Of a stretch of 64,000 nt of DNA, positions 15,595 to 47,220 are shown in pieces. The stretch comes from Halichondria panicea. Lineage: Eukaryota > Porifera > Demospongiae > Suberitida > Halichondriidae. Each line of letters starts with the position of its first letter. Within the stretch, counting starts at the first letter, position 1. The position numbers and the translations under genes were made by a program. The stretch spans positions 3,832,646 to 3,896,645 of the forward strand of contig NC_087391.1 of assembly GCF_963675165.1 (NCBI RefSeq), given 5' to 3'. The notes under the pieces are model-generated. The model had not been told where the DNA came from. It saw nothing but the letters and a program-made list of their open reading frames with translations, and made no database searches.

Positions 15595-18456
15595 ATGTAT
15601 GCTAGTACAAATTATTGTCTTCTATCGGTGTGCTTTTATCTGTTTGCCAATGGTAAGTTGTATTGATGCTCACAATAATTGCATTCATTGTTATTTTGTT
15701 GTGGTGTAGCTGCTTCTCAGCGTATTGAAATACAGCCAGTCGATCATCTGGATATTTTGCCTGGAACAGACGTTGTGTTTTCAGTAACTGTAGCTGATGG
15801 AGTTGGTTCTCTTGACTATTACTGGCTTAAAGATGGCGAAGTGCTTACTCATTCTCCTAAATATAGTGGAATAGACACCGGCACAATAACTGTTTTGAGT
15901 GCTAATGAGGAAGACGAAGGCTTTTATGTGTGTGTAGCTGTGTTTGAGCAAACAAATTTTTTTTCCAATCCAGCCTCACTCACTGTTCGTAAGTTGAAAG
16001 AAGTGGTATAATGATTACTACAGCTATATACATAATGAAGATTTCCTTTAAATGCTGTGTAATTTTCGTGTATGCACAGTGGATGTACCTGTACTCAATT
16101 CTCAGCCGGCAGACCAGATCAATGTTCCGCAGGGCAGAAATGCTGTTTTTGGTGTAGTGATTTCCGGTCAGTTCCTCAAGTACCAATGGAATAAAGATGG
16201 AGTTAACATTGTTGACACACCAGGCACCTATTCTGGTACAAACACGGCTACACTTACTGTGACTGCTGGCGAAGAAGGGGAATATAGCGTTTTAGTCACT
16301 AATCCAGCTGCACCATATGGGATCTCTTCCAACAGTGCTTCACTAATAACCTGTAAATAGCTATGTTTTTACACACTCATACTCATACTAATTTTCTGTG
16401 CAGTGTACCCTCCAGTTATTGCACAACAACCTATGGATCTGGGAGCTGCATTGGGTGACACTGCACACTTTTCGGTAGTGGTAGTTGGAAGTGGTATTTC
16501 GTACCAATGGCTGGTTATTTCTCCCCTTGGAGATGGAAGTGCTCTCACTAATACTGCCACCATGCTTTATACGAATACAGACACCTTAATTCTAATCGGT
16601 GTTACTGCAAATGATGAAGGAAAAACATTCTACGTTCGTGCCAGTAATGCTGCAGGAGATGTGCTGTCTACTACAGCAGTACTTACTATTGGTGAGTGGT
16701 GTTAGTTAAATGTGCATGAATGTGCTTTTCATGCATTTTTCCAATTTAGTACATCTTCCTGTAATCTACATCCACCCACAACTTTCGACACATCATGCTT
16801 CCTTTTCGGTTGTTGCTGCTGGTCAAAACTTGAGTTATCAATGGCTGAAAGGCAGTTATGCACTCAATGATACTTCAAAATTTTCAGGAGCTACAACAGC
16901 TACGCTGACAATACTCAGTCCTGTTTCTCCAGATGATGACGGATTCTACAGTGTAATGATTTCAAATGCTGCTGGTTCTATGACATCCAGCCAAAGCCTT
17001 CTAACTGTTTGTAAGCTAGACATACATTCTGTTGTTGGTTGTAACTATATAATTATGTTGTGCCTGAAGGACTGAGCATGCATGATTCCAGTGTTTTCCC
17101 CGTTCAGCAAATGAGCAAAACCTCACTATCCCTGTTATCGTGACTCACCCAGTGAATGTTGAAGCTCCTGTCAGGGGAACAGCTACATTTTCAGTTGTTT
17201 CTGTTGGAGATAGCTCTATACAGTGGTTTCAAATTCCAAATACGCCTCTTATGAATTCGGCAACCTTCAGTGGTACACAGACCATGTCATTGACCATTAG
17301 TAGTGTTACTCACACAATGGATAGGGATATGTATTATGTGAGAGTTAATGATTCAGCTGGAACTGCTGTATCAAGCACAGTTTCTCTAAATGTCGGTGAG
17401 TATATCACTCATTAGAAGCGGCAGGTTTGTAGTCTCCATAATTATAATAACTAACTCTCAGATGATTATTCTGTACTATAATTACACTCCCTTATACAGT
17501 TGACCCTCCTGTTGTCAGTATTCATCCATCCAACATGTTGAACCAGTACTCTGGAGCGCTTGCTTCTTTCAGTGTGGTGGCTACTGGACATGGACTGACC
17601 TATCGGTGGCAAAAGGATGGAGTTGTGCTTAGCGATACAGACAAATACACTGGAACCACCACCCCCACTATTAGAGTTACTGATATTGTCTTTCCAGTTG
17701 ACTCCGGCTTCTATAGTTTGGTTATTACCAATGTTGCTGGTGCTGTTGTATCCAATGCAGCTTCGCTCACCATTGGTAAGTCCACACCACCTGTATATTC
17801 CGATCCATTATTGTGCCTGCATGGAGGTGTCAGGTATACAGCCTTATTATGTGTGGGAAATTTTCTTGTAATTATTCTTAATTGACTAACAGCGGAAATG
17901 TAGGGAATTTGAAAATTCATCTATTCACCATACATTTTCAATTTCCTTCAGTTGCTAGGAATGACAGGAAAACAATACCTCATACGGCTACCATGCAGTA
18001 TTTAATGAACACCTTAATAGTGATATAGCAAGGGGTTATCAACTGCACTATATAGACATGCATAGTGTGGTTACTTAGCGATATAAATCGCTCTTACCAA
18101 GTTCTCATATGCTACTGCATAGTGCTAACAATTATATCATTCACAAGACATAATTTGTTCATATGCATGCATGCACACTCAAATAGTTGCCATTGTGAAG
18201 GACCCTGAGAGTATAATTGTCGCTGGTGGAGAGAATGCCACACTTACTGTGGCAACAATTGGGGACTCCCTCATTTACCAGTGGCGAAAGGATGGAGTAG
18301 ACATTACCGACACACCTGGTGCTTACTTGGGAGCAAGCACACCCACTTTGGTGGTGCTTAGCACTGATGATGATGATGAAGGCTTGTACCAGGTGACAGT
18401 GACAAGCATGGGCAAACAAGATGGTATTATTTCTACATCTGCATCATTGACTGTTC
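15595..18456 (+). other. Receptor block: signal peptide and Ig domains 1-7
   Basis: Exon 1 is 15595-15652 (MYASTNYCLLSVCFYLFAN, hydrophobic). Seven Ig exons follow: 15710-15988, 16080-16352, 16404-16691, 16750-17010, 17108-17395, 17500-17775 and 18187-18456. Each is one domain of 87-96 codons with a central W (YYWLKDG, YQWNKDG, YQWL, YRWQKDG, YQWRKDG) and a C-terminal D-x-G-x-Y element. Most lack the usual disulfide Cys pair: where an I-set domain has C before W and Y-x-C near the end, these have other residues (for example FYSLVI). They resemble the Cys-less Ig repeats common in invertebrate surface proteins. All lengths are multiples of 3, phase 1-1. Confidence 0.85.
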
Positions 18457-21400
18457 GTAAGTGCTTTTTAATGTGTTTGTATGCATGATGGTTCAAAAAT
18501 TCTCTTTGCAGTTACGTGCCCTGTATTACCTCTTCCTATGAACGGTGGCATTACATTTAACATGAGTTCTCTTCCAAGTGGTGGTTACCCACTAGGAAGT
18601 ACTGTGACATACAATTGTATCAGAGGCCAGATATTTGAAGGTGATATGATAAGAGTGTGTCAGTATGATGGGACGTGGAGTGGAGTAGGACCCAGCTGCA
18701 CTGGTGAGAATCAAGTACCTTAAGGAGATGATAAACAGAAATATTGATGCAAACATTTTGATAACTGTAAAAAGATGCGCATAGTGTTGTTAAACCATAT
18801 TCACTCTTTTCCATGCAGAATATTGTCCTGGTCTGACTCTAACAGATGGAAATGTTACATACTCTATTGGTACTAAAGAAGGCAACCTACAGCCTGGTGC
18901 TGTAGCCACTCACCAGTGTGAACTTGGCTTTGACTTGTCTGGTGGGACCAACAGGACCTGTTTTAATGTGGAAACGTCTGGACAAGGAGTGTGGACTGGG
19001 ACCAACCTAATATGTGAACGTGAGTTACTTTTTTGAATGAAATTTCCCCAACAATTTTATATATTAATGCATTTTCTAGCTAGGTTTTTAACTTTTCAAT
19101 CAAGGTTCCGATTGTGGGTAGAATTAGTTATGTACAAATCACATGCATGGCTTTATGGATACTTTATACTGAAACTTGTTGAAATTGGCCACCATGGTAA
19201 CAGAATGACAACTGTCTTACTGAAGTATTCTTTCCTTTGTGTCAGATTACAGAAATTAGGTTTATATAGGCTTCTGTAGTTGGTGTTGCTATGACTCAAT
19301 GGTGCACACATATTTCATACTGAAACTTGTTGAAATTGGCCACCATGGTAACAGAATGACAACTGTCTTACTAAAGTATTCTTTCCTTTGCTTCAGATTA
19401 CAGAAATTAGGTTTATATAGGCTTCTGTAGTTGGTGTTGCTATGACTCAATGGTGCACACATTGCTTGTTATAAGGGCTGCTATTAGCTAGGGGTATATT
19501 TTGTCTTCCACTTAAAAATTTGCAACCATTGAATTTTACTGGAAGGTCAGTCATATAGGAGAGTATAGTATAGCACAAACCGATATAGTACACTCAGCAA
19601 CAGAAATTGCATATAGCATGATTTAGTATTAGTTTTTGGACCAAGTTTAGTCAACGTGAGGGAGTGTATAGTGATGTGCAGAAGCCATGCACTACCGGTA
19701 ATCACTCCCGAGAGTTTACTGTTATCTAGCTTGCTACTGAAACTATGTCAACAAACTCATTAATTAGTTCAACGCGGGAAGCAGTACTATACACATGCTA
19801 TCTGGCTTATTTATTCTACCGTGTGAGTTAGTGACCTACTGGCACGTTTTTTGGATAAAAAACTCTTGACATCAAATTGAATGAATAATAGTTAGTTAGT
19901 GACCTGCTGGCACGTTTTTGGATAGAAAATTCTTGACATCAAAGGTTGAAAGAATAATTACCTGAGGTACGAAGGCGACTACGGGTTATAATAGTCTGTT
20001 GTTGTCTGTTTTGAGTCTGCTCACCTGGCTATCATAGCACTACGTTTACAGTTTACAGCACGGATATAGCTTCAACACCACAGCCATTTTCAAAGCCTTG
20101 TCATAGCGTTCAAATCTGATTTTTCTCTGTTTCATTGCCCTCTGTAGTTGCTGATAGGTTTCCATATTCATACATATAGCTACTAGATTTTCTTCTACTG
20201 ATTCCCAGTACAACACTTATGGTTGTGAGACGTTATAACGGCCGAGGATTTAGTAGTTGTTGCTAGTCTCTATCATATAACAATTATAGGTACATTTTAT
20301 ACTACAATGTCTCTGTTATTGTACGTATCACAGCATTTTAACACTTTTAATTTTTTCAGGTGTAAGGTGCAATCCTCTACTTCTTGAAAATGGATTTATC
20401 GACTATAGCTCAGATGTAGAACTTGGTAGTGGGTCTGGTTTTTTTGCTGAGCAAAATGATGGATATAATTTTGGCACTGCTGCCACTCTCACCTGCAATA
20501 CTGGGTTCTCTTTGACTGGCGGTGATGCTGCGAGAACCTGTGATAATGGTATAGGAGTAGAGGGAGAGTGGAGCGGAGAGCAGCCTGATTGTCAAGGTGA
20601 GTTTTGCTTGTCAGTAATTTAACAAGAACATTTATGTAAAATCACCTTTTTAATGCAATGATTTTCACAATTCAGACATTACCTGTGGGTTTATTATTCT
20701 GGAAAATGGGATCATCTCGTTCGATTCAAACTCAGACTTCCCTTTCAGTTTTGGCACTGCGGCCACACATAAATGTGACCCAGGGTTCTCCCTTGTGGGT
20801 ACAGAAATGAGAACATGTGATGGGAATGGGTCTAGTACATCTGGAATGTGGAATGGAGAGGCACCGATTTGTCAATGTAAGTACTGTATTGTTTTATTGT
20901 TTACGATGAATTCATTTGCATTCCACAGCTATTATGTGTCCTGCTCTGCTCCTTGCTAATGGCAATGTGGAGTATGATGGTGGAAGTCGTGTATACTCTG
21001 GGGACAGTGAGGGAGGAAGTCATGTATACTCTGGGGACAGTGAGGGAAAAGATGTCGGCTCTGGAGATGGTATTCAATACGGTATCAATGCCACTCTCAC
21101 TTGCAATGAGGGCTTCATTATGTTGGGTGACGTGACTAGAGTTTGTGAAGGAAGTGGTTCTACAGGAGTATGGAGTGGCTCTTCTACGATGTGCTCAGGT
21201 TTGTAATGTAAGTAATGTTACCGCCTTTATTTATTTTGCTTCAGCTGTTATGTGTCCATCGCTAACTGCTCCCAGTAATGGATCTATTTCTTATGCTGAG
21301 GACATGACAGCTGACTTTGAGTTCATGACGACTGTAACATATAGTTGTAACTCAGGCTTTGCACTACTTGAAGGAGATTCTATGAGAGAGTGTTTGGGGA

Positions 21401-24400
21401 AGAACGAGTGGAGTGGAAGTCCGCCTCTTTGTCATGGTTAGAATGAGATACGTATATAATTGTGTGTGTCTGTATTGTGACGGCACCCCTTCAGTTAGTA
21501 TATGTATAATTATAGGACGATGTTTTTCTTCCAGCTGTTACGTGTCCTACACTCGTGGATATATCCAATGGTGTGAACGTGACCTATGACCATGCTCGGT
21601 TGCCCAATGGCAGTCTTACAGTTGGAACAGTAGCCACTTATGGCTGCATGGATGGATTTGCACTACTAAATGGATATACTTCAAGAACATGCACTGGTAA
21701 CGGCACTACTGTCAATGGGGAATTCGATGGACAAGAACCATCATGTGAAGGTGAGAACTGTGAGTCATAATGATTGTATATAACATATGCATCTCTATCT
21801 CTCTGTAGCAATAACCTGCCAGGCATTGCCCGAACCAGCAAGTGGAACTGTGTTCTATGATGACAATAGAGATGACGGCTCGTATGCATTTAATGTTGTG
21901 GCCAGCTATAGTTGTGACATAGGGTTCACTCTGGTGGGTGGGACGACTAGAACTTGTACTGGAGATGGCAGCAGTGTGGTCGGTGCTTTTGATGGACTGG
22001 CTCCAACTTGTGAAGGTGATTAGTAAAAATTTTTGTGGAGCATGTATTTAATATTTTTCACTGGCAACTGTAGCCATCGTTTGCTCTGCTTTGTCAATTC
22101 AAAATGGAGTTATAGAATACAATAGTAGCATACTTTTTAGTGGATTCTTCTTTGGTGAACGAGCCCAGTATGACTTTGGAACTACTGCTATTTATACGTG
22201 CAACACTGGATTTGCTTTGACTGGTGGTGATGTTGTGAGAAGCTGTGGTTGTGGCATTGGAGTCGATGGAGAGTGGAGCGGACAGCAGTTGACATGTCAA
22301 CGTGAGTTACCTTTACTAAGTTTTAATTGCTTCTTTGCCAATTGCTTACCTGTGTGCTTGTAATCTTTCACATTTCAGCGATTGTGTGCAGCTTTTTGTT
22401 CCTAGAGAATGGAGTGATCACATACTCGCCAGACACAGAACAGCTCCCTTACAGTTTTGGCACTGTGGCCACACATCAATGTGACCCAGGATTCTCCCTT
22501 GTTGGTACTGGAAAGAGAACATGTGGTGGGAATGGAACATATACATATGGAATGTGGACTGCGGAGGCACCAATTTGTCAACGTAAATAATTAATGGCAA
22601 TGAATGTGTTTTGTCTTTTGACTACTCTTCTCTCTATTCATAGCCATATTTTGTCCTGCTCTGGTCCTCACTAATGGCTATGTGGATCATGGGGATGGAA
22701 GTGGTGCATACTCTGGGATCAGTGAAGGAAGTGGTGCATACTCTGGGGTCAGTGAAGGAAGTGCTGCCGGCTCTGGAGATGTAATTGAATACGGCACTGT
22801 GGTCACCTACACTTGCAACATTGGTTATGTGTTGACTGGTGGTGATGCTTTGAGAACCTGTAGTGATGAGGGCGAGTGGAGCGGAGGGGAGCCTACCTGT
22901 GATTGTATGTTTGCAAACTAGCATCACGACTAACAAATACTTATCTCTTACACATAGCCGTCCTGTGTGACTCACTGACCCTCAGCAATGGTTCTATCTT
23001 GTACTCACCTGACACTGACTCTCCTTTTGATTTTAACACTGTGGCCATTCCTAGATGTGACAAAGGATTTGCTCTGAATGGAAGTGTTGCAAGGATATGT
23101 GAAGGGGATGGAGTCAACTCTACTGGTATTTGGAGTGGAGAGCCTGCATTTTGTGAACGTGAGTTCTCAGCGATGTTTAACATTGGAGCTACTGCTTTCT
23201 ATACTTTACTTCAACCTTTGCAGCAATTTTTTGTGATCTAGTGACTATTGAGAATGGAGTCATTGAGTACTCAATGAGTAATCTAGCCCCCTTCTTATTT
23301 GGTACCGTGGCTACTTACTCTTGTAATGAAGGATTCTCATTGTTTGGGGTTGTGGAAAGGATTTGTGATGGAGATGGAGCCAATGTATTTGGAGTGTGGA
23401 GTGACATGCCTCCCACTTGCAAACGTATGCAATATAATGTTTTGCCCTGACTGTGTTTACAACTGATTCCCTTCTCAGCCATTACATGTGACCTGCTTTC
23501 CCTGGATAATGGAGTAATCTCATACTCACAACCAGACACAGAGTTCCCTTTGAGATTTGGCACTTCGGCCACACATCAATGTGACCCAGGATTCTCCCTT
23601 GTAGGTTCAAAAATGAGAACATGTGATGGGAATGGGTCTAGTGCATCTGGAATGTGGACTGGGAAAACACCAATTTGTCAACGTAAATTAAATATTTTGT
23701 TGAATTAACTCTTAATTCAACAACTCTCAATTACACTTCAGCGATTGTGTGCAGCTTTCTGTTCCTAGAGAATGGAGTGATCACATACTCGCCAGACACA
23801 GAACAGCTCCCTTACAATTTCGGCACTGTGGCCACACATCAATGTGACCCAGGATTCTCCCTTGTTGGTACTGGAAAAAGAACATGTGGTGGGAATGGAA
23901 CATATACATATGGAATGTGGACTGCGGAGGCACCAATTTGTCAACGTATATAATTAATGGCAATGAATGTATTTTTGTCTTTTGACCACTCTTTTCTCTA
24001 TTCATAGCCATATTTTGTCCTGCTCTGGTCCTCACCAATGGCTATGTGGAACACGGTGATGGAAGTGGTGCATACTCTGGGGTCAGTGAAGGAAGTGGTG
24101 CATACTCTGGGGTCAGTGAAGGAAGTGCTGCCGGCTCTGGAGATGTAATTGAATACGGCACTGTGGTCACCTACACTTGCAACATTGGTTATGTGTTGAC
24201 TGGTGGTGATGCTTTGAGAACCTGTAGTGATGAGGGCGAGTGGAGCGGAGGGGAGCCTACCTGTGATTGTATGTTTGCAAACTAGCATAACGACTAACAA
24301 ATACTTATCTCTTACACATAGCCGTCCTATGTGACTCACTGACCCTCAGCAATGGTTCTATCTTGTACTCACCTGACACTGACTCTCCTTTTGATTTTAA

Positions 24401-27400
24401 CACTGTGGCCATTCCTAGATGTGACAAAGGATTTGCTCTGAATGGAAGTGTTGCAAGGATATGTGAAGGGGATGGAGTCAACTCTACTGGTATTTGGAGT
24501 GGAGAGCCTGCATTTTGTGAACGTGAGTTCTCAGCGATGTTTAACATTGGAGCTACTGCTTTCTATACTTTACTTCAACCTATGCAGCAATTTTTTGTGA
24601 TCTGGTGACTATTGAGAATGGAGTCATTGACTATTCAATGAGTAATCTAGCCCTCTTCTTATTTGGTACCGTGGCTACTTACTCTTGTAATGAAGGATTC
24701 TCATTGTTTGGGGTTGTGGAAAGGATTTGTGATGGAGATGGAGCCAATGCATTTGGAGTGTGGAGTGACATGCCTCCCACTTGCAAACGTATGCGTTATA
24801 ATGTTTGCCCTGACTGTGCTTACAACTGATTCCCTTCTCAGCCATTACATGTGACCTGCTTTCCCTGGATAATGGAGTAATCTCATACTCACAACCAGAC
24901 ACAGAGTTCCCTTTGAGATTTGGCACTTCAGCCACACATCAATGTGACCCAGGATTCTCCCTTGTAGGTTCAAAAATGAGAACATGTGATGGGAATGGGT
25001 CTAGTGCATCTGGAATGTGGACTGGGAAAACACCAATTTGTCAACGTAAATTAAATATTTTGTTGAATTAACTCTTAATTCAACAACTCTCAATTATACT
25101 TCAGCGATTGTGTGCAGCTTTCTGTTCCTAGAGAATGGAGTGATCACATACTCGCCAGACACAGAACAGCTCCCTTACAGTTTCGGCACTGTGGCCACAC
25201 ATCAATGTGACCCAGGATTCTCCCTTGTTGGTACTGGAAAAAGAACATGTGGTGGGAATGGAACATATACATATGGAATGTGGACTGCGGAGGCACCAAT
25301 TTGTCAACGTAAATAATTAATGGCAATGAATGTATTTTTGTCTTTTGACCACTTTTCTCTCTATTCATAGCCATATTTTGTCCTGCTCTGGTCCTTACCA
25401 ATGGCTATGTGGAACATGGTGATGGAAGTGGTGCATACTCTGGGGTCAGTGAAGGAAGCCCTGCCGGCTCTGGAGATGTAATTGAGTACGGCACTGTGGT
25501 CACCTACACTTGCAACATTGGTTATGTGTTGACTGGTGGTGATGCTTTGAGAACCTGTAGTGATGAGGGCGAGTGGAGCGGAGGGGAGCCTACCTGTGAT
25601 TGTATGTTTGCAAACTAGCATCACAACTAACAAATACTTATATATATCTTACACATAGCCGTCCTGTGTGACTCACTGACCCTCAGCAATGGTTCTATCT
25701 TGTACTCACCTGACACTGACTCTCCTTTTGATTTTAACACTGTGGCCATTCCTAGATGTGACAAAGGATTTGCTCTGAATGGAAGTGTTGCAAGGATATG
25801 TGAAGGGGATGGAGTCAGCTCTACTGGTATTTGGAGTGGAGAGCCTGCGTTTTGTGAACGTGAGTTCTCAGCGATGTTTAACATTGAGGCTACTGCTTTT
25901 TATTTTACTTCAATCTTTGCAGCAATTTTTTGTCATCTGGTGACTGTTGAGAATGGAGTTATTGAGTACTCAATGAGTAATCTGGCCCCCTTCTTATTTG
26001 GTACCGTGGCTACTTACTCTTGTAATGAAGGATTCTCATTGTTTGGGGTTGTGGAAAGGATTTGTGATGGAGATGGAGCCAATGTATTTGGAGTGTGGAG
26101 TGACATGCCTCCCACTTGTAAACGTATGCGATATATTTGCCCTGACTGTGTTTACTTACAACTGATTCCCTTCTCAGCCATTACCTGTGATCTGCTTTCC
26201 CTGGATAATGGAGTGATCTCATACTCACCACCAGACACAGAATTCCCTTTGAGATTTGGTACTTTGGCCTCACATGAATGTTTCCCAGGATTCTCCCTTG
26301 TGGGTACAAACATGAGAACATGTGATGGGAATGGGTCTAGTGCATCTGGAATGTGGACTGGGAAGACACCAATTTGTCAACGTAAATTGAATTACCTCTT
26401 AATTCAACAGCTCTCTTAATTCAACAACTCTCAATTCATAGATATAGTATGTCCTGCTCTGCTCCTTGCCAATGGTAACGTGGAGTATGATGTTGGAACT
26501 AGTGGGGACAACGAGATCAGCTCTGGAGATGTGATTGACTATGGAACCAATGCCACTCTCACCTGTAATGATGGCTTCTTCCTGTTGGGTGAAGTGACTA
26601 GACTTTGTGAGGGAAATGACTCTACTGGAGTGTGGAGTGGATCTGCTACAATGTGCTCAGGTATGTATACGTGTAATAATAACCAATTTCTTTGACATTC
26701 ATTAAGGTACTATTTTTATCATCAGTGATCATGTGTGAAAGCCTAAGTGCTCCGCTGAATGGAACCATATCATTCCAAGCTGACACAGCAGCCACATTCA
26801 ACTTCAGAACCATGGCCACGTACGCATGTGACAAAGGTTTTGCCTTGTCTGGTGGAAATCCAGAGAGGACGTGTGAGGAAGGCCCTACTGAGGGGATGGG
26901 AGCGTGGAACGGATCTGCTCCTACCTGTTCTGGTAAGCTGATTTTGTTGCGTTAATGTATATGCCTCAAATCTTTGTCGCTTTTTTTATTTGAATGCATG
27001 CCCTCTTCCACAGAAATACTGTGTAATACACCAAGTGATCCGTTTAACGGCAAAGTAAACTTGAATGTCAAAAATCTCACCATTGGAGCCGTAGTGGCCT
27101 TTTCGTGTGATCCTGGTTACTCTCTTGTGGGCAATGTCAGCATAACTTGTGAGCAAGAGGGTGTCGTTGGAATGTGGAGCAATGATATTCCAACCTGTGA
27201 TGGTAAGAAATGCATCATCAATTTATTGTATGTAATTATTTTGTTTTTCTATAACAGCGATAGAGTGCTCAATGGTGAATACATTGCCCAATGGAACGGT
27301 GATGTACAGTGTTGACACTGTGGCACCCTTTGAGTTTGGTACTGTGGCGACACTTTCTTGCGATAATGGATTCTTTCTTGACGGAGACAATGTAAGGGTG

Positions 27401-36400: not shown

Positions 36401-39400
36401 AAGAAGGCTTCTTCTTGGTGGGAGTGAGCATTAGAGAGTGTGGTGAGGGAAACGGAATAAATGCTGAAGGAGAATGGAGTGATGGTTCCCCCGCCTGCTC
36501 AGGTATGTATAATTTGAAGCAATCTCTCTCACATTCAATATTTTTGTCGTCAGTGATCATGTGCGAAAGCCTAAGTGCTCCACTGAATGGAACCATATCA
36601 TTCGTAGCTGACACAACAGCCACATTCGACTTTAGAACCACGGCCACGTACGCATGTGACAAAGGTTTTGCTTTGTCTGGTGGAAACCCAGAGAGGACAT
36701 GTGAGGAAGGCCCTATTGAGGGGATGGGAGCGTGGAGCGGATCTGCTCTCACCTGTTTTGGTAAGCTGATGTTACTTTAATGTACATGCATCAAATCTTT
36801 GTCGCAGTTATTATGTGTCTTTATTTGAATGCATTCCCCATAATGCCCTATTCCACAGAAATACTTTGCGATACACCAAGCGATCCTTTTAATGGCAAAG
36901 TAAGCTTGAATGTCCAAAATCTCACCGTTGGAGCTGTGGTGGTCTTTTCATGTGATCCTGGTTACTCTCTTTTGGGCAATGTCAGCATAACGTGTGAGCA
37001 GGAGGGGGTCGTTGGAATGTGGAGCAATGATAATCCAACCTGTGATGGTATAAGTTGAATTTTTTTAGATGATTGTGGATTATCTCGTTTGTTTGCAGTT
37101 ACTTGTTCTCCTATTTCTGGTATCGAAAATGGCTGGGTGAGCTACAACTTACTCCGAGAGGTCAATATGGAGTATATCCTTGGAACTCGAGCTTCCTATT
37201 CTTGTGACGATAGAGCTGAGCTATTTGGGGAATCTACAAGAGTGTGTGTTGGTGATGATTTGTGGAGTGGCAACGCTCCTTCATGTCAAAGTATGTTTAA
37301 TTCTCTACCCCTGATATGTTGCATACCGGTAGTGCTTTGGTTCGCATGTGTTATCATTTGTTAATTTCACAGGTGTTTGCTCGAGCCTAGAAGAAGTGTT
37401 GTATAGCAGTGTTACATATTCTTCTGCTCCTAATGCAAATGATAACTATATGATGGAAACAGTTGCCACGTATCTGTGCAGTGAAAATTACGTACTCAAC
37501 GGTGCAATCAGTCGAACATGTGGACCTGATATGCAATGGTCTGGAACTGCTCCTAGTTGTGAATGTGAGTATTACTACATGCACTGTACATTTCTTTCAT
37601 TGATAGTCTTATACTGTCCCTCAGTAATCATGTGTGACGAGTTGGCTCGTCCTTCCAATGGAAATATCACCTTCTCAATGGGTGTCATGCCAAGCTTTGG
37701 TGTAATGACAGTAGCAACATACAACTGTCACACTGGCTATGCTCTCACTGGCGGAAAAAATGTACGAGTGTGTGTGGGGATAAGTGACGCTCAATTGGGT
37801 CAATGGAATGGAAGTGAACCCGTTTGTAAAAGTAAGTATACTTTATACCGCAAAAACGATTTGACTGTATGATGTTTTGCAGTAATAACATGTCGAATGC
37901 TCCCAAGTCCTGGCGCTGGCTCAGTTTTATATTCAAACCTCTCTGAGCCCATAATTTCAGGAACAGTAGCTACATATCAGTGCAATCCAGGATTTTCCTT
38001 AGTTGGAAATGTCAATGCAACTTGCGTTGGTAATGGCCATAATGTTTTTGGTGTTTGGACAAGCAATGAATCATCTTGTGAACGTAAGAATGACCACTTG
38101 GCTTTTGAATTTTTTTATACACTTCTTTTTCTCTATTTGTAGCAATCAAGTGTCCACCATTAAATGCTCCTCTAAATGGAAGTATTCACAATGCTGCAGA
38201 CTTTAGAACCTATTCTAGCTTCGGAACCGAGGCAAGATATTCATGTGATCGTGACTTCAAGCTCAGTGATGAAAGTGCAGTAAGAATTTGCATGATGAGT
38301 AATTCACTCGGTGTGATGGGAGTATGGAGTGGAGTCGAACTTAAATGTGATCGTAAGTTTATCACTCTAAGTCCTTTGTAGTCACTTGTTAATTAAGCTT
38401 ATGACTTTTACTTCTTCCATATGCACTAGCAATACAATGTCAGGAAAGTCTTTCCCTTGTTGATGGCATCATCTCGTATGATCCTGAAAGTCCTCCATAC
38501 GTCATTGGCACCGTTGCCAGATACAATTGCAATGCTGGGTACTTTCTAAACGGAACACTATTGAGGAATTGCACTAACGATGAACCTAACGAGCGTGGTG
38601 TATGGAGTACTAGTGGTCCAGAGCCACTTTGTGAAGGTAAAATCCACACTTACCCCTATATTGTGTCTTATTTTCCGTTCTTTGCAGCTATTGAATGTGA
38701 AGAACTGGTGCTTCCGGCTAATGGTGAAAAAATTATGTACACCAAGGACACCGTGGCTAATTTTGAGATAGGAACCCTTGCCATTTATACCTGTCTCCCT
38801 GGTTACACATTGCTTGGTGATACGAACAGAACTTGTATAGATGATAACCAGGCTGACGGAAAGGGTGTGTGGAATATTACTCACGCAAAATCAGAACCAA
38901 CCTGTAATGGTGAGCTAGCCTTATGTTAATTAATTAGGAGCTGGATTATTTGGACTGATGTAAAACTAAACACAAAAAACCTTGTTTTTACCTGTAGTTG
39001 TTGTACGTATTGTGTGCTGCTTATGATTTAATTATGTGTTCGTTCGCCACTAGAATAACTATTACATTACTTCATACAGAAATCCATTGGAACGACTCGG
39101 TATCGGAAGGTTCTCCTGCTCAAGTTTGCATCAACTTTAATACCTCTGTTGTTCTGTATACCACAACAGACACTGCTACAGGTTAGTTAGTGTACCCTCT
39201 GACTATAGAAGTGATGATGCAGACAATAGACTTGAAAATACAAGTATGTTCTCATTCCTTTTATAGTGGGTGAAGACTTCGAAAACATTTCTACCATAAT
39301 CAATGCGCATTCTCCACCCATGATGGCATGTGTCAGCATCAATACCTCCAAGGACGCCACTTTTGAGCCTACAGAGTATTTCTTTGTGAAGCTAAGGATA

Positions 39401-42400
39401 ATGGATCCCAATATTAGTTTTCAACAGCCACTGATCCGAATCTCAATTCTAAACATAGTAAGCTTATCTTTGCATCATTCAGAAATGTCATTCCATATTG
39501 CACTGCAGGGTGGATTTCCGAATGGTTCCATCTCCACCGTTCTTTTCATGTTATCGGATATTGTGCGGAATATATCACAGTCCTCTGATTCTATCTCTTC
39601 CATTGACAACTCTCTTGCAGAGATCCTTGAAACATTCTCGTCTGAAGGCACTTTTGATAACATTGAAATGGTAAAGTCAAATAAACACATGTCAACAACC
39701 AATTCCTGCATTAAGCATTGCAAATTGGTCCTACCAACGTAATTAATATAGCACATCATTTTTTCCTCCAGACAATAGATGCATTTATCTCAGTTGTGAA
39801 CACTCTTCTTGGTTGGCCATCAGACGTTCACTCTATGACCTCAGCAAGGTTTGTATTATAATAGTCTCTTTACATATGCCATTGTGCGTGATTTGGTTAC
39901 AGCATCATCTCCAAGTTCGAGTCTTTGATTAATTTGATAGTTACAGAAGATATGTTTAAGGAGATCGAACAATTTGACGAGCAGATTTCATTGCGTGCAC
40001 TAAAGGTAATTTTGAACTTGCATGCAATCCAGTTTTAACAGACCTAATATGTAATTGTGTGCAGAAATCTCTGTCAGAGCTTCGCAATAATGGTATAGCA
40101 TTCAACTCACCAGTTTCAACAACTTCTCGAAAGAGACAAGTTTCATCTCAAATACTATTTTCAAGTGTCACATTTCTACCTTCATTCTTCTCTGCCAGCA
40201 GTACTGGAGCAGTTATATTCACACTCTTTAAGACTTCAGTCATGTTTCCCTTGTTGGATGATAAGTTCATGGTTGCTACTCCAATAGTGGGAGCCAGAGA
40301 ACCCACGGAGGGCAGCTGCGACCAAGAGATGTGCATTTCCATCAATTATGAGCTACAAAATGAAGTAAGTGCAATATTTCAATGCATAATTGGGTTATTA
40401 TTATGTTGTTGTTTTCCTCACAGTACTACAATGTAACATGTGTTTCCTGGAAATTTGGTAATTTATATAAGCATAATATAATTGTATTAATAAAAATACT
40501 AACCAAACATTATTATTGTCAACAGATTATGGTGGTTGGAACAGTAGTGGTTGTAGGTTATCGGACTCTTTTACTGAACCTATTCATGGGAGTATTACTT
40601 GCAGCTGTAATCATGCGGGAAACTTCGCAATTCAATATGTGAGTGTACGTGTGTAACCAGTTACGTAATACTCATCATGCTGATTTTTCATTATGTAAAA
40701 TTATAGTGCCCTATTCCACAACGATGTGACCCAAATGCAAACTGTAGCACAGGGGAGGATTGCCCGTGTAATGCAGGATATGGTCGAAACAATGATAGTC
40801 CCTACTGTAAAGGTATAATTACCATGTAGCACTGCATATTTTATGTTATCAGTGCATGCCATGCATTCACTGTATGTAATCTTTCTAGGAATCGTATGCG
40901 AGCCACTTAATGAACAACTAGGCATGAATGGAAATGTATATTACAATAATTCTGATCTTCGTGTGATGACCACTGCGAATATAAGTTGCAAGGACGGCTT
41001 CTCTCTTCAAAATGGTAGCCACACCCGAATATGTGAACAGGACGACCAGACAGACACTACAGGAAAATGGAGTGGGAAAATGCCAACCTGTGAACGTAAG
41101 TCCTGCACTTGGTTTGCACTATATAATATATAGACCATTGAATCTATAAAGTGTAAGCCATTGTTTGATTGTGCATGTGCTTTGTTTGCTAATAAATTTA
41201 TCATCACTCTAGATTTTTTTTTCTCCTGGCCATTTTTATCACACTTACTGTCTCTTCACAATTGTAGCCATACTATGTATGAAGCTTGGTAATCATCCAA
41301 ATGGCAGCGTTACATACGTTGTGGATGATACCCCTGACTATGATCTTGGGACTAATGCCACCTACAACTGTAACTATGGCTACTCACTCAATGGAATGGA
41401 TGCTGTGAGAAAATGTGTTCAGGATGACCAGATAGACACTGTTGGAAACTGGAATGGAATAGTACCACTCTGTCTTGGTAAGACTCCTATATAATAAGTA
41501 GTAAAATCAGAAAGTCACTTATTTCACAGAAATCCTTTGTCCTCCTCTTGATGAGCTTGTCAATGGAAGCATCGTTTATGGAGAAGATGAAATAGCCAAC
41601 TTTGACATTGGAACAACAGCCAAGCATTCTTGTGACTATCGGTACCGTATCGATGGGAGTGTGAACAGAACTTGTGACCAAGACAACCAAGTAGATACAG
41701 TGGGAGTTTGGAGAGGAGACCCTCTCAATTGCAAGCGTATGTTCACAATGCTTTAATTTGCAGTTAGCATGATGATCGTTCTTATATCTTATATCCAGCT
41801 ATACCACCAAATATTGAGATAAATGTAACGGGTATCAGCTTCAACAACTCAGTGGACCCTGGAAGAGCATTCAGTATGTTGTGTTTCTCTGAAGGAGAAT
41901 TCTCTGGTCCTGTCTCATGGAAATGGAACAATGGAATACCTGTACAGAGCATAGGTATATGTAAACAAAATAATTTGTTTAGACATTCTAATGCACACTT
42001 CATATCTACGCACTCTACAGATTATATTGAGCAGCGTTCGATCAGTTTGGGCAGCTTAACTCGCCTCTATCAATCCACCTTCAGTGAGGAGCTAATCAAT
42101 CGTACGACTTATTTTGCTGAGTTGGTGACACTGAAAGATTTTGGTGTGGAACCTGACTCCAGTGGATTGTACACATGCACTGCTAACAATGGTCTCACTA
42201 CTTCAAACAATCACACTTCAATCACTATTAACGGTAAAGAATTAGTGTACTAGAGTATTGTGTCTTACTAATAACTATATACAGCTCCCTCAGTCAAGAT
42301 AGAGAATAAGACTACTTACATCAGGTATGATCTTAACATCAGTTCACTTGAGGCTATTGAGGCGCAAAGAAATCTGACATCCCGAAATGTGACTCTCAAG

Positions 42401-45400
42401 TATTTGAACACAGCGGTGAGGTTGTGTACATTTTCACTTGAGCTAATGATGATTTGCTTTATCAGTTTCTGAGGGGGCTGAAAGAGGACGTTGAAGGCTT
42501 CTACTTAATCGAATCGTTAACAGTTTCAAGGTTTGTTTTCGTACGTGTAAAACTATGATGCCCTGTAAACTCATGCATGCTGTGCAAATCTTGAGCACTG
42601 CAAAAAAGTCTATGCAATCTATATATTGCATTCATTTAGTGACACTGATCTGATAATGGCACGTATGGAGACAAGAGTGAGAAGATTTGGGTTCAAGTTC
42701 ATCCAAGCCTTCAGCATCAACGATTCTCTTGATGCTTTAGAGATGGCCGGTCTCCCTGCTACCAATGTGTCCATGTCCTTCAAACAATCTGGTATGCATG
42801 TGACTGCTATTGCATTAATCATTTAACACTTAAAATGCAGAAATGGGATTCTGCTCAATGGATGTTAATATGTCCATCTTGTATGGAAGATATGTATGGG
42901 AGGAGGTTGAAGTGGGTCAAAATGATTCACACCCTTGTGTGTATGGAAGTCTTAATGGCATGGGAGTGGCGTCCAGAGTATGTCGAGCACCACTTATATG
43001 GGACGATCCTGTGTATGTGCCAGTGGATGAACCGGGTTGCTTCACACGGAATACCAAAAGATTCCAGGAACTTCTGAACTCAAATGTGAGTTAACAACAT
43101 GGCTGATGCAGGTTGTTGCATTTCACTATGTACATTAATTCTACAGCTGACTTTTGAGACTGCTGTTGAGACACTCACCAACCTTAGTGATGTCGTGTCT
43201 CTGTCGACTGCTCCTGAAGACCAGAGCAGTCTGAACTTTGGTGTTATAGTCACTCTGTTTAATATCACTAGCAACATGCTGGACTCCACCACTGGCACAA
43301 AACTAGAAGAAAAAGAAGAAATTGAAGTGAGTTGACAAACATTGCTTTCATGTGACTTGTGACTTCTATACTATAAATGGCAGGTTGTTACACAAGTTCT
43401 TGATGTGGTTGACACTGTCACTAACTGGCCTGAGGAAGTTATTAACGAAGGATCGTCCATGTATGAATTCTTTTTCAGTATGCAAAAATTACTAATTCTT
43501 GTCTTTTTTTAGGGTGGTAGATTCCTTTGAAAGGATTCTGACAAGTTTTGTTGGGCGTGAGAATCTGACAAGCAATATATCCATCACTGGAAATGATACA
43601 GCAATACTTGCACTAAGGGTAAGATAACTATGTCCACAGTCTGCTGTAATTATTTTCTAAGCTAGGCCGAGTCGGAAATGATATCCATCGAAGGATTTAG
43701 TGTGACCACTGGTCAGAACGGAGTAACATGTAAGGCTGCATGCATCTTATTTGGTCATGTTTGCATACGTCTGTCATGACGCCATTATAATTATTCGTTC
43801 ACATGCACATTTGCAGCAATTGTGAACTGTAGTGACGAAATGAGGAATAGAGATGAAGCATGCATAGCGTTGCCTCCATTAGTATTTGAAGACAGTGAGA
43901 AAGATGTTGGACTTGTCTTCACGTACTATAACAGCCCTTCTTTATTCCCCCTTGCTGACAAAAACAACTCTAACAGTTCCACAGTGGTGGGAACAAGCGT
44001 TATTGGAGCTATTGTAGGGGGAGGCAATCACACAGGAAACGTTACCATCATTCTTCCATTTCTTTTGTCGGTAAGGATGTGTTATGTATATTATGTATTA
44101 AGAATATGTGTATTTATACAGTATTATATATTAAGAATATGTGTATTTATACAGCCGGCTGCATACAACCGTTCAACAATTGCTTGTGTCAGCTGGGATT
44201 TCTCTGGAAACGGTATTCAATTTTGGCATATTGAATGCTCTTTTTTACACAATTTTTCTTGCAGGCGGTAGAGGAAACTGGACCACGAAAGGATGCACTG
44301 TTAATAGTGACCTTTGCAGTAACATAGTCAGCTGCACATGCGACCATCTTACTAACTTTGGAGCATTGGTGGTATATTCTTGTTATAATTATATTAGTTG
44401 TGTTATATAGCGACTCAATGAATCGTTACTAACAGTAATTCTATCTTTTAAATTCAGGATTTCTGCCCAAATCCTGGAGGTTGTGAACCACTGCCAATAA
44501 AATTACAACTAGCATTAGACTATTTTTCTTGGATTGGAGCTTCATTGTCTATCATTGGATTGATTCTTACTCTAATAACATTGCTTGGATTTAAGTAAGC
44601 AAAGTTAAATTTCATGCATATTGACATTACTGTCCTCACGAGCAGGAAACTGCGTCAGAGAGATGCTTCCAAGTATCACATCCAGTTGTGTCTTGCAATG
44701 TTGCTATCGCTCATTTTCTTTCTTATTGGAATTGAGGCAAAAATATATACAGGCACCTGTGTTGCCGTAGCAGGACTAGTACAGTACTTCATCCTGGTTT
44801 CATTCATGTGGATGGGTGCTGTTGCATTGCTGATGTTCCAGAAGTTGGTTATTGTGTTTGGGAATATCACAACTAGGTTTATAGTGATCATCTCCTTAAT
44901 TTGTTGGGGTAAGTTTATTTGCAGCTATATATAATTTTGAATTGAGTGTAAACTGCATAATCAGCAGTAATTCAGCACTTGGCTTCCCTTTGTACGTTGC
45001 ATATTCGTTAATGTTGCTCTATCTACGGTACCTGCATACCATATATACATGTAGCGGGGAAATGTTTTTTCACCAGCTATATGGTATTCTCCCTATCATG
45101 CAGGTGCTCCTGCATTACTGGTTATCCCTCTGACAGCAGCAAGCGGAGACCTGATGATTACGGTGACTAATGACATGGATAATTGTACAAAGCAACCTAC
45201 GGAAAACAAAACTATTAGATCGTAAGTCTTTACTGTGATGCTGCATTAGTAAGTGTTAGTGTTAATACCAATAGTCTCTAGCTGGTTACTTTCGAGGTTT
45301 TTGAGGATTGACCCAGAAACACGAAAATTTAATGCCTTGAAAATTGGTTTACATCCGGTATTGAAATGTCTATACTGTAGGGGTGTGATCATTTGAACCT

Positions 45401-46625
45401 CTATCCTTGAAAATAAAATCCTCGAAATGAGCAATCTCAGAAAATTTAGTGCCTCGAAAATAACCCGCTATACGGTGTTTGTGTATTGTATAATTTGTAG
45501 GACGTTGTATTTCTCGTGAGGACCCAAATTCCAAATGACCTTAGCTTGTGCTGGCTTTCTATGTCCTCCATAAACATAGTGCTTTACAATTTGGGCAGTT
45601 TCCAAGTAATCTCAATTGTCTATCTCTTTGCACACAGTTGCTTTACTAGTGACCCAGGGATATTGTACGGAACATTTCTCGGTCCCATACTTGTGGTGAT
45701 TGTCTTCAATTTCGTCATATTTTTCTGCATACTTGCGGTTCTTTCCAATCATATAAAGAAGAAGTATAAACGAGCTGTAAACCCACGAAGATTGGTAATG
45801 AAATTCGTAATCAACATCTTTGGCATTGTGTCCTTGTATGGTTTCACCTGGCTCTCTGCGTTTTTGGTAGCCACACAGGAGAGAACAGCAAACTATACCT
45901 TTCAGGTAATCTTCACCGTACTAAACTCTCTCCAGGGGTTTTTCTTGTTCATCTTCTTCTGCGTTATTAGTAAAGATTCAAGAGATGCTTGGAAAGGAAT
46001 CATTTGTCGAGGAAGACCAAGAAGTAAGTCGACTAACAAGCAAAGTAGCAGTGGTCATACTGATAAAACAGCAAGTACTCTCGCTAGACGCCGCCATGGT
46101 AATACTATGTTATATTCTACTTCTACAATGGAAAGAAGATACACTGGAGCAGACAGCATGATGGGAACATTAGAGAGGAGGCCCAGTACCGGTATACTAG
46201 GCACAAGCTCAGTTGTGAGTACTCTCAACAGAACAGACAAACATTTGAGTAGCATGCCTCCTGCCATTGCTGAAGAGCTTGAACTGAATAATGAATACAT
46301 ATTCGCAAATGAGAATACCGAAATTGAAACTGAATGCTACATAACCGGCCCTACTACAAGTCCTATTATACCCATGGATGCTGAGGAAGGTGGTGCTTCT
46401 GTTTTCGAGAACGTGGAAGCATTGATTAATGATCAAGATGGTCATGGAAGAGAAAGCGGTGAATACATACAAACTGATGGAAAGCTAAATGCTGAGGAAG
46501 GTGGTGCTTCTGTTATCGAGAACGTGGAAGCATTGATTAATGATCAAGATTGTCGTGGGAGAGAAAGCGGTGAATACATACAAACTGATGGAGAGCTAAA
46601 TAGCAATCCATTTGCTCATATTTAG
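15595..46625 (+). CDS. Giant adhesion GPCR: 8 Ig, 73 CCP, Calx-beta, two GAIN/GPS, 7TM
   Basis: By my count 107 exons join in one frame to 21,582 nt (7,193 residues) with no internal stop; block coordinates are in the following entries. Order with approximate residues: signal peptide 1-19; Ig1-7, 20-664; CCP1-70, 665-5485; Calx-beta 5486-5583; GAIN1/GPS1 5584-5846; EGF-like 5847-5881; CCP71-73, 5882-6089; Ig8 6090-6212; unassigned 6213-6328; HormR-like 6329-6410; GAIN2/GPS2 6411-6692; 7TM about 6693-6987; cytoplasmic tail to 7193. Only one signal peptide and one 7TM region were found. The exons for Ig1-7 and CCP1-70 are all phase 1-1, so one gene is the simplest reading. Adhesion GPCRs normally self-cleave at the GPS and signal through a tethered agonist; the ligand here is unknown. 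Transcript evidence could still split the model, and exon 1 rests on signal-peptide logic. Confidence 0.85.
18512..22301 (+). other. Receptor block: CCP domains 1-9
   Basis: Exons: 18512-18703, 18819-19019, 20360-20596, 20676-20876, 20929-21198, 21245-21436, 21535-21750, 21809-22015 and 22074-22301. Each encodes one sushi domain with four cysteines, an N-G near the start, a Y/T-x-C-x-x-G-(F/Y) centre and a W-S-G-x-x-P-x-C end. The exon at 20929 carries an insert with two copies of VYSGDSEG. All are phase 1-1. The intron 19020-20359 is unusually long and contains tandem duplications. Confidence 0.88.
19170..19462. repeat. Intronic tandem duplication, 151-bp period
   Basis: Within the long receptor intron 19020-20359, a unit beginning tgaaacttgttgaaattggc at 19170 repeats at 19321 and is almost identical, including ggtttatataggcttctgta. 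A second, smaller tandem pair built on gttagtgacct..ctggcacg lies near 19826-19960 with a period of about 69 bp. Confidence 0.8.
22379..26660 (+). repeat. Receptor exon array 1: five-CCP unit T-P-Q-R-S, three copies
   Basis: CCPs 10-25. Unit 1 exons: T 22379-22582, P 22644-22904, Q 22958-23158, R 23224-23424, S 23479-23682. Unit 2: T 23742-23945, P 24008-24268, Q 24322-24522, R 24588-24788, S 24842-25045. Unit 3: T 25105-25308, P 25371-25601, Q 25659-25859, R 25923-26123, S 26178-26381. A diverged P-type exon at 26442-26660 closes the block. Unit spacing is exactly 1,363 bp from T1 to T2 and T2 to T3; exons and introns are both highly similar. P exons differ only in the number of a 30-nt repeat encoding SGAYSGVSEG (two in P1 and P2, one in P3). 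All exons are phase 1-1. Confidence 0.9.
26726..37047 (+). repeat. Receptor exon array 2: four-CCP unit A-B-C-D, 9.5 copies
   Basis: CCPs 26-63. Starts of A exons (207 nt each): 26726, 27814, 28868, 29969, 31069, 32169, 33269, 34368, 35465, 36554. B (189 nt): 27014, 28102, 29177, 30277, 31377, 32477, 33577, 34666, 35773, 36859. C (207 nt): 27258, 28346, 29426, 30526, 31626, 32726, 33817, 34914, 36021. D (207 nt): 27542, 28604, 29697, 30797, 31897, 32997, 34096, 35192, 36296. The array ends after B10. From C3 to B7 every exon is exactly 1,100 bp from its counterpart, introns included, with only a few substitutions. Each exon is one four-cysteine sushi domain, often with an NGT sequon, and is phase 1-1, so unit number can change without breaking the frame. 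Confidence 0.92.
37099..38909 (+). other. Receptor block: CCP domains 64-70
   Basis: Exons: 37099-37290, 37373-37564, 37625-37831, 37883-38083, 38143-38352, 38430-38636 and 38688-38909. These are diverged, non-repeated sushi domains with the four expected cysteines and W-S-G or W-x-x-x-x-P/S-x-C ends. All are phase 1-1. Their divergence contrasts with the homogeneous array just upstream. Confidence 0.87.
39080..39457 (+). other. Receptor block: Calx-beta-like domain
   Basis: Two exons, 39080-39181 and 39267-39457. The read-through shows Calx-beta landmarks in order: SVSEGSPAQVCINF, then VGEDFENIS (usually GxDYxxxS), then FEPTEYFFVKL (usually E-x-x-E-x-F-x-V-x-L) and the terminal strand IRISILN. 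Calx-beta repeats occur in vertebrate ADGRV1 and in sponge aggregation factors. Only one is seen here. Confidence 0.75.
39509..40638 (+). other. Receptor block: first GAIN domain with degenerate GPS
   Basis: Exons: 39509-39670, 39772-39848, 39903-40005, 40065-40364, 40424-40457 and 40526-40638. The helical GAIN-A part (DIVRNISQS, FISVVNTLLGWPSDV) precedes a beta-rich part. The GPS reads TCVSWKF, then DYGGWNSSGCRL, then SITCSCNHAGNFAIQY. The four GPS cysteines and the tryptophans are present, but the cleavage tripeptide is H-A-G where active sites have H-L-S/T. It is followed by an EGF-like module, not by a membrane helix. A KRQ basic site occurs within the domain (SRKRQV). Confidence 0.82.
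40707..41736 (+). other. Receptor block: EGF-like module and CCP 71-73
   Basis: The exon 40707-40812 encodes a 35-residue six-cysteine module (CPIPQRCDPNANC, CPCNAGYGRN, PYC) resembling EGF. Its 5' boundary is phase 0, directly continuing GPS1. Sushi exons 40889-41095, 41268-41477 and 41530-41736 follow, each with four cysteines and phase 1-1. Confidence 0.78.
41799..43085 (+). other. Receptor block: Ig8, unassigned segment, hormone-receptor-like domain
   Basis: Ig8 uses two exons, 41799-41954 and 42021-42233, and unlike Ig1-7 has a classical Cys pair (SMLCFS and DSSGLYTCTA). A stretch of about 116 residues from 42285-42415, 42466-42530 and 42640-42791 is not recognised. The exon 42841-43085 contains YVWEEVEVGQ, CVYGSLNGMGVASRVC and a terminal GC, matching the W..C..G-x-A-x-R-x-C..C layout of HormR domains that often precede GAIN in adhesion GPCRs. 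Confidence 0.7.
43147..44371 (+). other. Receptor block: second GAIN domain with canonical GPS
   Basis: Exons: 43147-43326, 43384-43460, 43513-43618, 43666-43729, 43817-44070, 44155-44212 and 44265-44371. The GPS reads IACVSWDFSGN, NWTTKGCTV, then SCTCDHLTNFGALV, so the HL/T cleavage site is intact and the tethered agonist would begin TNFGALV. The second exon (77 nt, VTNWPEEV) corresponds in length, phase and sequence to the 77-nt exon of GAIN1 (LGWPSDV), showing that the two modules are duplicates. A 34-bp duplication before 44155 creates two possible acceptors. Confidence 0.88.
44458..46625 (+). other. Receptor block: seven-transmembrane domain and cytoplasmic tail
   Basis: Exons: 44458-44594, 44646-44908, 45104-45221 and 45638-46625. 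Seven hydrophobic segments are clear: SWIGASLSIIGLILTLITLL; IQLCLAMLLSLIFFLIGI; VQYFILVSFMWMGAVALLMF; VIISLICWGAPALLVIPL; FLGPILVVIVFNFVIFFCIL; VINIFGIVSLYGFTWLSAFL; IFTVLNSLQGFFLFIFFCVI. The SLYGFTWL and LNSLQGFFLFIFF motifs are diagnostic of the adhesion family. The roughly 200-residue tail is Ser/Thr-rich and contains a perfectly periodic 37-residue duplication (111 bp at 46380-46490 and 46491-46601), each with a GEYIQTDG element. Confidence 0.93.
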
Positions 46626-47178
46626 TGATAACACACAACTGACTTGCTACATTGCTATAGATATACTTATTGACTAATACTATAATTTATGGAGCTGCTA
46701 TTAAATTAATTAAGGCTGTAACACGTACGTATAATAATATATATAGCAATACTTTTATTATGTATCTAGATCTAGATCTATATGGATTAATTTCTGCTGA
46801 CCGGCTTAACTTTACAGTAGCCCACATATTGATGGGTTATAGGTGTGAAGTGTGTATACTGATAGAATATGAAGAATCTGTGTTGAGTAAACCATAGCCA
46901 TAATTATAATAACTATTTAGTCTTGCAAGCCAGCTGTTTATTTCAACTTCTGCGAGACTACAAAATAATTATGATACAATAAGTTGAATAACAAAGCAAC
47001 AAAACCAAAATTTTCATTGCACATGTAGATCTACACAGCACTGTAATAACATGCATGGACCTAGGTGAAAGTTAAAATGATGTGCAGGCTTGGAAGTATG
47101 GCCTCGATTCTGGCCCTTTACTGCTGCCTGTAATCGAGGCTAATGGAGTAGAGTCTACAGCTTGCTGTTGCTACTTTG
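46626..47178. other. Intergenic, no gene seen
   Basis: This holds the receptor 3' flank and the upstream region of the hydroxyacid oxidase gene. The only structure noted is a small foldback at about 47102-47143 (gcctcgattctggccc / ggc..gtaatcgaggc) of the family also present at 6187-6246. Confidence 0.5.
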
Positions 47179-47220
47179 ATGATCATTGCCAATCAAGAAT
47201 TCATTCGCAAAACATGCAAA

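Follow-up and report, generated by a model that had tools for sequence, protein, structure and literature searches.

ADGRV1 (VLGR1) is an adhesion GPCR of about 6,300 residues whose ectodomain is made of Calx-beta repeats, and GABA-B1a is a GPCR with two sushi modules on a class C body that has no GAIN or GPS. The receptor gene described here resembles ADGRV1 in joining a very long ectodomain to the body of an adhesion GPCR, and GABA-B1a in having sushi modules on a GPCR, although it shares neither the class nor the number of modules with the latter. Its GAIN-GPS-7TM body is held in common with ADGRG2, ADGRG4 and similar group-VIII-type adhesion GPCRs. ADGRV1 is listed as the largest human ADGR (PMC9146371). 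Repeat-rich N-termini have also been described for the SRCR-repeat and Ig adhesion GPCRs of Amphimedon queenslandica (PMC4302439), of which the SRCR repeats resemble those of the paralogues presented below and the Ig modules resemble those of our gene. The adhesion GPCRs of amphioxus likewise carry unusual extracellular modules, including SRCR, lectin and Ig (PMC2246102). As far as the accessible portions of these two papers go, the words sushi and CCP are absent from the text of both (figures apart for PMC4302439), and a second GPS is not mentioned in PMC4302439. A two-GAIN adhesion GPCR is likewise undescribed in the accessible portions of PMC4302439, PMC12716839, PMC6208332, PMC8242945, PMC13197933, PMC2246102, PMC9146371, PMC11697300 and PMC13062082, and the phrase “two gain” has a count of 0 in those of PMC13197933, PMC11697300 and PMC13062082. 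More generally, we found no description of such a receptor in the open-licence literature of PubMed Central, which is weak evidence of absence.

The window, by which we mean the whole stretch of 64,000 nt that was analysed (G000:C15:3832646-3896645), belongs to a genome of 131 Mb that comprises 39 contigs. A first-pass annotation of the window had proposed an adhesion GPCR encoded by a single gene of 107 exons. We rebuilt this gene from the DNA with our own splice and coding programme, and then curated the model by eye, because the programme, trained on sushi exons, missed the exons encoding the 7TM region. The rebuild was not blind: the exon count of 107, the ends and five junctions were known beforehand, and the start at 15595 and the stop at 46625 were fixed in the curated model, so that agreement has to be read as a check. 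The curated model consists of 107 exons in a single frame, with a CDS of 21,591 nt including the stop codon that encodes 7,196 residues, and contains neither a stop nor a frameshift. The chain of GT-AG exons proposed earlier was thus recovered, with all 106 introns being of this type. The size also held, with a difference of 9 nt from the earlier figures (21,582 nt, about 7,190 residues). The exon ends at the named junctions (15652, 18456, 37047, 38909 and 40638) are all present in the rebuilt model. The introns vary between 46 and 1,340 nt with a median of 64 nt, and 90 of them are in phase 1. An ATTAAA word is located at 46700, 75 nt past the stop codon. The largest intron (19020-20359, 1,340 nt) contains two copies of a 151-bp tandem repeat at 19159-19462. 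The features of the gene are the following:

15595..15652, + strand: exon 1, start codon and signal-peptide-like stretch (MYASTNYCLLSVCFYLFAN), judged by hydrophobic core score; an in-frame TAA lies upstream of the ATG at 15574
15710..18456, + strand: exons 2-8, each encoding one of seven Ig-like modules (Pfam Ig_3/I-set, seven stretches)
18512..38909, + strand: exons 9-78, each a phase 1-1 exon encoding one of 70 sushi modules (Pfam, local model)
22379..26381, + strand: exons 18-32, a five-sushi unit of about 1,363 bp present three times (self-comparison shifts 1363/1364; pN/pS 0.25)
26726..37047, + strand: exons 34-71, a four-sushi unit, about 1,100 bp long, repeated 9.5 times (pN/pS 0.23)
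39080..39457, + strand: exons 79-80, Calx-beta-like module (Pfam 22.1 bits, below the cut-off of 27)
39509..40638, + strand: exons 81-86, GAIN1 ending in GPS1 at 40424-40638 (Pfam GPS 33.2 bits; homology with GAIN2)
40707..40812, + strand: exon 87, EGF-like Cys stub following GPS1, identified by eye and without a match in Pfam
40889..41736, + strand: exons 88-90, sushi modules 71-73 (Pfam, three stretches)
41799..42233, + strand: exons 91-92, weak Ig-like module (Pfam E 0.025; 15.5 bits, cut-off 30)
42285..42791, + strand: exons 93-95, linker in which Pfam found no family
42841..43085, + strand: exon 96, Cys-rich module before GAIN2, hormone-receptor-like by eye only
43147..44371, + strand: exons 97-103, GAIN2 ending in GPS2 at 44155-44371, with H-L-T (Pfam GPS 42.3 bits)
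44458..46014, + strand: exons 104-106 and first part of exon 107, 7TM region (7tm_2), right limit approximate
46015..46625, + strand: rest of exon 107, cytoplasmic tail, with the stop codon at 46623-46625

A Pfam search with the residues of exons 1-12 and 72-107 returned 7 Ig, 14 Sushi, 2 GPS and one 7tm_2. Twenty further sushi exons, run singly, were all above the cut-off, which brings the sushi exons that passed Pfam to 34 of the 34 tested. The remaining 39 are identified by a local model that was derived from the first 14; this model matched all 73 sushi exons, and it matched none in the reversed protein. The proposed number of 73 sushi modules is therefore borne out. Each sushi exon encodes four Cys residues, except for exon 17, which encodes five. 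Seven of the eight Ig modules of the first-pass annotation were recovered by Pfam, but the eighth is the weak module of exons 91-92. The seven N-terminal Ig-like modules contain one Cys altogether, located in the first, and hence the usual disulphide pair is absent from them. A domain search of the joined protein had been suggested with the first-pass annotation; Sushi, Ig, GPS and 7tm_2 were all found above their cut-offs, but Calx-beta stayed below its cut-off and Pfam's own GAIN model gave no match at E up to 1. This sets the ectodomain apart from that of ADGRV1, as it contains one sub-threshold Calx-beta module and 73 sushi modules, with exons 13-71 being sushi exons throughout.

The 7TM region was detected with PF00002 (7tm_2) at an E-value of 2.5e-34 and 119.1 bits, against a cut-off of 20.6, and is immediately preceded by GPS2 (PF01825, 42.3 bits). 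The GAIN and 7TM parts together align to the structures of ADGRG2 and ADGRG6. Among solved structures, the closest to GAIN2-7TM is ADGRG2 (7xke, E 8.4e-56); the ADGRV1 structure (9fte) is a weak match (E 1.5e-4), and the scores of class B1 structures are well under that of ADGRG2. A secretin-type (class B1) receptor is not indicated either by the modules, since a GPS is present and HRM gave no Pfam match at E up to 1, the module of exon 96 included. The assignment as an adhesion GPCR with one signal peptide at the start and one 7TM region at the end, as first proposed, is thus upheld by the signal-peptide-like exon 1, the single 7tm_2, the GPS and the match to ADGRG2. In the cytoplasmic tail, an in-frame 111-bp (37-residue) tandem repeat is present at 46378-46601 in two copies that are 95% alike.

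The best named matches in protein databases are ADGRG2-like and AGRG4-like proteins. No sponge protein appeared among the names given by these searches, each of which scored about 8,000 candidates of 0.55-1.75 times the query length (3, 20 and 44 matches). The best match of the first protein search was discarded, as its sequence is that of a sushi protein that is not related and lacks the GAIN-7TM part. Five of the 20 matches (from mollusc, cnidarian, placozoan and fish) were scanned, and all five had one GPS each, whereas the gene in the window has two and, in addition, 73 sushi modules.

The first-pass annotation had regarded the sushi and Ig modules on a 7TM body as the main novelty. We consider that place to belong to a second GAIN/GPS module, which it had missed and which is the stranger feature. 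Both GPS (PF01825) are above the Pfam cut-off of 22.5, with 33.2 bits for GPS1 and 42.3 bits for GPS2. No transmembrane segment directly follows GPS1; instead, the EGF-like stub, three sushi modules, the Ig-like module, the linker and the Cys-rich module intervene before GAIN2/GPS2 and the 7TM region. GAIN1 and GAIN2 are 20% identical over 229 aligned columns (two-sequence E 2.9e-11). Their exons end in phases 0,2,0,0,1,0 and 0,2,0,1,0,1,0, respectively, with an extra intron in GAIN2, and the corresponding exon lengths are 162/180, 77/77, 103/106, 300/(64+269), 34/58 and 113/107. Together, this homology and the matching phases lead us to interpret GAIN1 as a duplicated exon block. Against solved structures, the best E-value of GAIN1 is 0.003, obtained through its GPS part. 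We take the two GAIN/GPS modules as a variant of the ADGR layout, which usually has one, and not as a reason for exclusion from the ADGR family.

The canonical GPS cleavage motif is H-X-S/T (PMC13062082, accessible portion). GPS2 has the sequence C-D-H-L-T-N-F-G (H6687), and has thus kept the cleavage triplet H-L-T. The sequence of GPS1 is C-N-H-A-G-N-F-A (H5836), in which the triplet is H-A-G and the S/T nucleophile is absent; judged by this motif, GPS1 is probably uncut. The same source portion describes ADGRB2 as having HLS and yet being uncut, so that H-X-S/T alone is no proof of cleavage (PMC13062082).

A coding and splice model trained solely on another locus of the genome, on contig C11, scored 1251 on the + strand of the window and 56 on the - strand. 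It recovered 76 of the 107 exons exactly and covered 18,186 of the 21,591 coding bases. This model replaces a control that had been trained on the gene in the window itself (1313 versus 51); the strand scores of the C11 locus (5629 versus 9) come likewise from a model trained on its own locus. For the tandem sushi copies, pN/pS is 0.23 in the four-exon and 0.25 in the five-exon unit, summed over all equal-length pairs of copies, which are not independent of each other. When the first and last copies were compared, the rate at nonsynonymous sites was the lower one in 4/4 exon types. The copies hence differ mostly silently, from which we conclude that the array is translated; by these sequence measures, there is purifying selection between tandem copies in both unit types. 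At the level of the DNA, the observation of a giant adhesion GPCR gene model is confirmed as real.

This does not fix which products are usual. With 90 of the 106 introns in phase 1, most sushi exons could be removed without a break in the frame, and the repeats are near-identical. The phase 1-1 exons of a single gene might thus be skipped variably, in which case the usual products would be much shorter and the 7,196-residue form would be a minor one or a theoretical maximum. The purifying selection on the tandem copies, which implies that their translation matters, speaks against this, and we consider it unlikely. The gene in the window, if made at full length, is likely longer than ADGRV1, as had been claimed (7,196 versus about 6,300 residues), but the locus on C11 may be longer still, and the status of “largest GPCR” is not established for the gene in the window.

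Further loci with two GPS are present in the same genome. A genome-wide search gave 68 GPS matches, of which ten form five same-strand pairs: those of the gene in the window, C11 (+), C2 (-), C2 (+) and C3 (-). In each, the paired GPS are 3.2-4.4 kb apart and located before a 7tm_2, and no 7tm_2 lies between them among the matches listed. The module of exon 96 is found between both GPS at 4/4 paralogue loci, and the Ig module of exon 91 at 2/4. The sushi exons of the window had no match upstream of the four paralogue GPS pairs. Pfam runs on pieces of the C2 (+), C11 and C3 drafts identified EGF_CA and SRCR in their upstream arrays; that of C2 (-) was judged by eye only, from start fragments. 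One spliced piece of the C3 draft holds two GPS stretches (Pfam). As in the window, phase 0 is the end phase of the GPS1 exon in the C11, C2 (+) and C3 drafts, and the next exon is a short stub with end phase 1. The GPS1 triplets of the paralogues are HLS (C11 and C2 (+)), HLG (C2 (-)) and HLT (C3). At the C11 locus (G000:C11:2000118-2078897), a merging setting of the programme joined 303 exons into one chain of 48,537 nt, or about 16,000 residues; this chain is a weak draft, whose 5' end lies beyond the part of C11 that was covered. Under the strict setting, a 72-kb slice of this locus fell into 11 pieces of >600 nt, versus three for the gene in the window. The draft suggests that the C11 locus may be a candidate for a still larger receptor.

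A different tandem GAIN is located at C13:776801-779200. Its two near-identical GPS, both HLTNFAILL, are 2.1 kb apart and are joined by a Ser/Thr/Pro-rich repeat linker and GAIN-like sequence; no 7TM-like frame was seen in the 2.1 kb between them. A further GPS pair is present on C13 at 769055/767259. On C4, sushi matches are found on the same strand, 3-5 kb before a 7tm_2, at 205236-208984, 247572-252090 and 1554075-1562595; judged by these matches, they are possibly other sushi-bearing 7TM receptors.

The junction that follows GPS1 (40638/40707) has weak splice sites, with the donor and acceptor in the 6th and 8th percentile, respectively, of the gene's own sites. The gene contains 16 AATAAA/ATTAAA words, and AATAAA is present around GAIN1 at 39680, 40489 and 41191. 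The locus might therefore comprise two genes in a row, the first encoding a secreted or otherwise anchored Ig/sushi/Calx-beta/GAIN1 protein and ending at about 40.6-41 kb, and the second an ordinary adhesion GPCR with sushi, Ig, GAIN2 and 7TM. Besides the splice sites and the words at 40489 and 41191, the lack of a transmembrane segment after GPS1 fits such a division. Programme runs with free ends gave one chain (15650-42156), or, under the strict setting, the pieces 15650-17903, 18171-44876 and 45798-46625, or, after training on C11, the pieces 16433-41141 and 41279-44459, whose break would also agree with two genes but lies inside a run of sushi exons, away from GPS1. A loose setting over-joined the gene to 1754-63857. 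As the free runs either split or over-join the gene, they do not decide the number of genes, and because of the over-joining neither the single-gene claim nor the length of the C11 locus is rested on the loose chain. No candidate for an alternative signal-peptide first exon was found in the 106 introns; control scans of 9.5-kb flanks on the two strands gave 0 and 1 candidates per flank. Moreover, the order of GPS1, exon-96 module, GPS2 and 7tm_2 recurs at 4/4 paralogue loci under quite different arrays. On balance, we regard two genes as improbable. That the repeat array is an artefact, either a decayed array or an assembly error multiplying the 1.1-kb unit, is most improbable: copies of the four-sushi unit within about 29.1-33.5 kb are 95-100% identical, and the copy number can be wrong in such a stretch, but the 107 exons contain no stop or frameshift, pN/pS is about 0.23-0.25, the other copies differ, and an assembly error would alter the count and not the architecture.

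We thus think it likely that the locus is one gene with a double-GAIN layout, the rarity of the full-length form being counted separately. Its status as a single gene is supported, not proven, by sequence features, namely the GPS1-GPS2-7TM order at five loci, the GAIN homology and the shared phases.

Downstream, a segmental duplication onto C8 includes the last exons and the region that follows them (window 44355-53070, about 82-98% identical depending on the piece). The copy of the last exon on C8 (93%) was rejected as a second giant gene, as the likeness starts inside exon 103 and only exons 104-107 match, which identifies it as a segmental copy of the 3' end. The stretch shared with C8 also contains an exon of an FMN-dependent dehydrogenase (window 49031-49657; PF01070, E 3.4e-60). 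A hAT transposase dimerisation region is present at 55196-56083 of the window (PF05699, E 6.3e-13).

For the single gene, we propose the following assembly. The encoded adhesion GPCR would have at most 7,196 residues, arranged as signal peptide, seven Ig and 70 sushi modules, the Calx-beta-like module, GAIN1/GPS1, the EGF-like stub, three more sushi modules, Ig, the linker, GAIN2/GPS2, 7TM and tail. The array has grown by duplication of exon blocks, as the tandem units show; such blocks can be added without breaking the frame because they belong to one phase class. GAIN1 would go back to an ancestor common to the double-GPS loci, in which all exons of a GAIN were duplicated as one block, with the direction and date of this event being our reading. 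Given its intact triplet, GAIN2 is predicted to be self-cleaving, with the cut falling between L6688 and T6689. A fragment of about 6,690 residues would then stay attached to a 7TM fragment of 508 residues, which would begin with the tethered agonist TNFGALV. GAIN1 of the window, having lost the S/T nucleophile, would most likely act as an uncut folded spacer or a force-bearing module. The very long tether may bind a putative partner on another cell, the matrix or a microbe, and so pull on GAIN2. Going by the usual length of the module, 73 sushi modules arranged end to end could extend over roughly a quarter of a micrometre. A role in cell recognition or immunity, as suggested in the first-pass annotation, is a guess by analogy with the module types.

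More tentatively, these loci might represent a tandem-GAIN receptor family with giant expandable ectodomains, consisting of sushi and Ig modules here and of EGF and SRCR modules at four loci, with an independent tandem on C13. Members with HLS or HLT in GPS1 might be cut twice, giving three non-covalently joined pieces that could serve as a two-stage sensor of force or shedding, while the GPS1 of the window, locked as H-A-G, would leave one release point; the longest member might exceed 10,000 residues. We hold this wider reading to be possible, but rather doubtful.

Adhesion GPCRs have been described with one GAIN beside the 7TM region, and how pull on the ectodomain frees the tethered agonist is a standing question. 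The second GAIN described here lies at a distance from the membrane and, going by its motif, could be cut in some paralogues but is locked in the gene of the window, so that the two states would be open to comparison within one genome. The tandem arrays, whose copies are under purifying selection and in part recently duplicated, indicate how ectodomains can reach thousands of residues.
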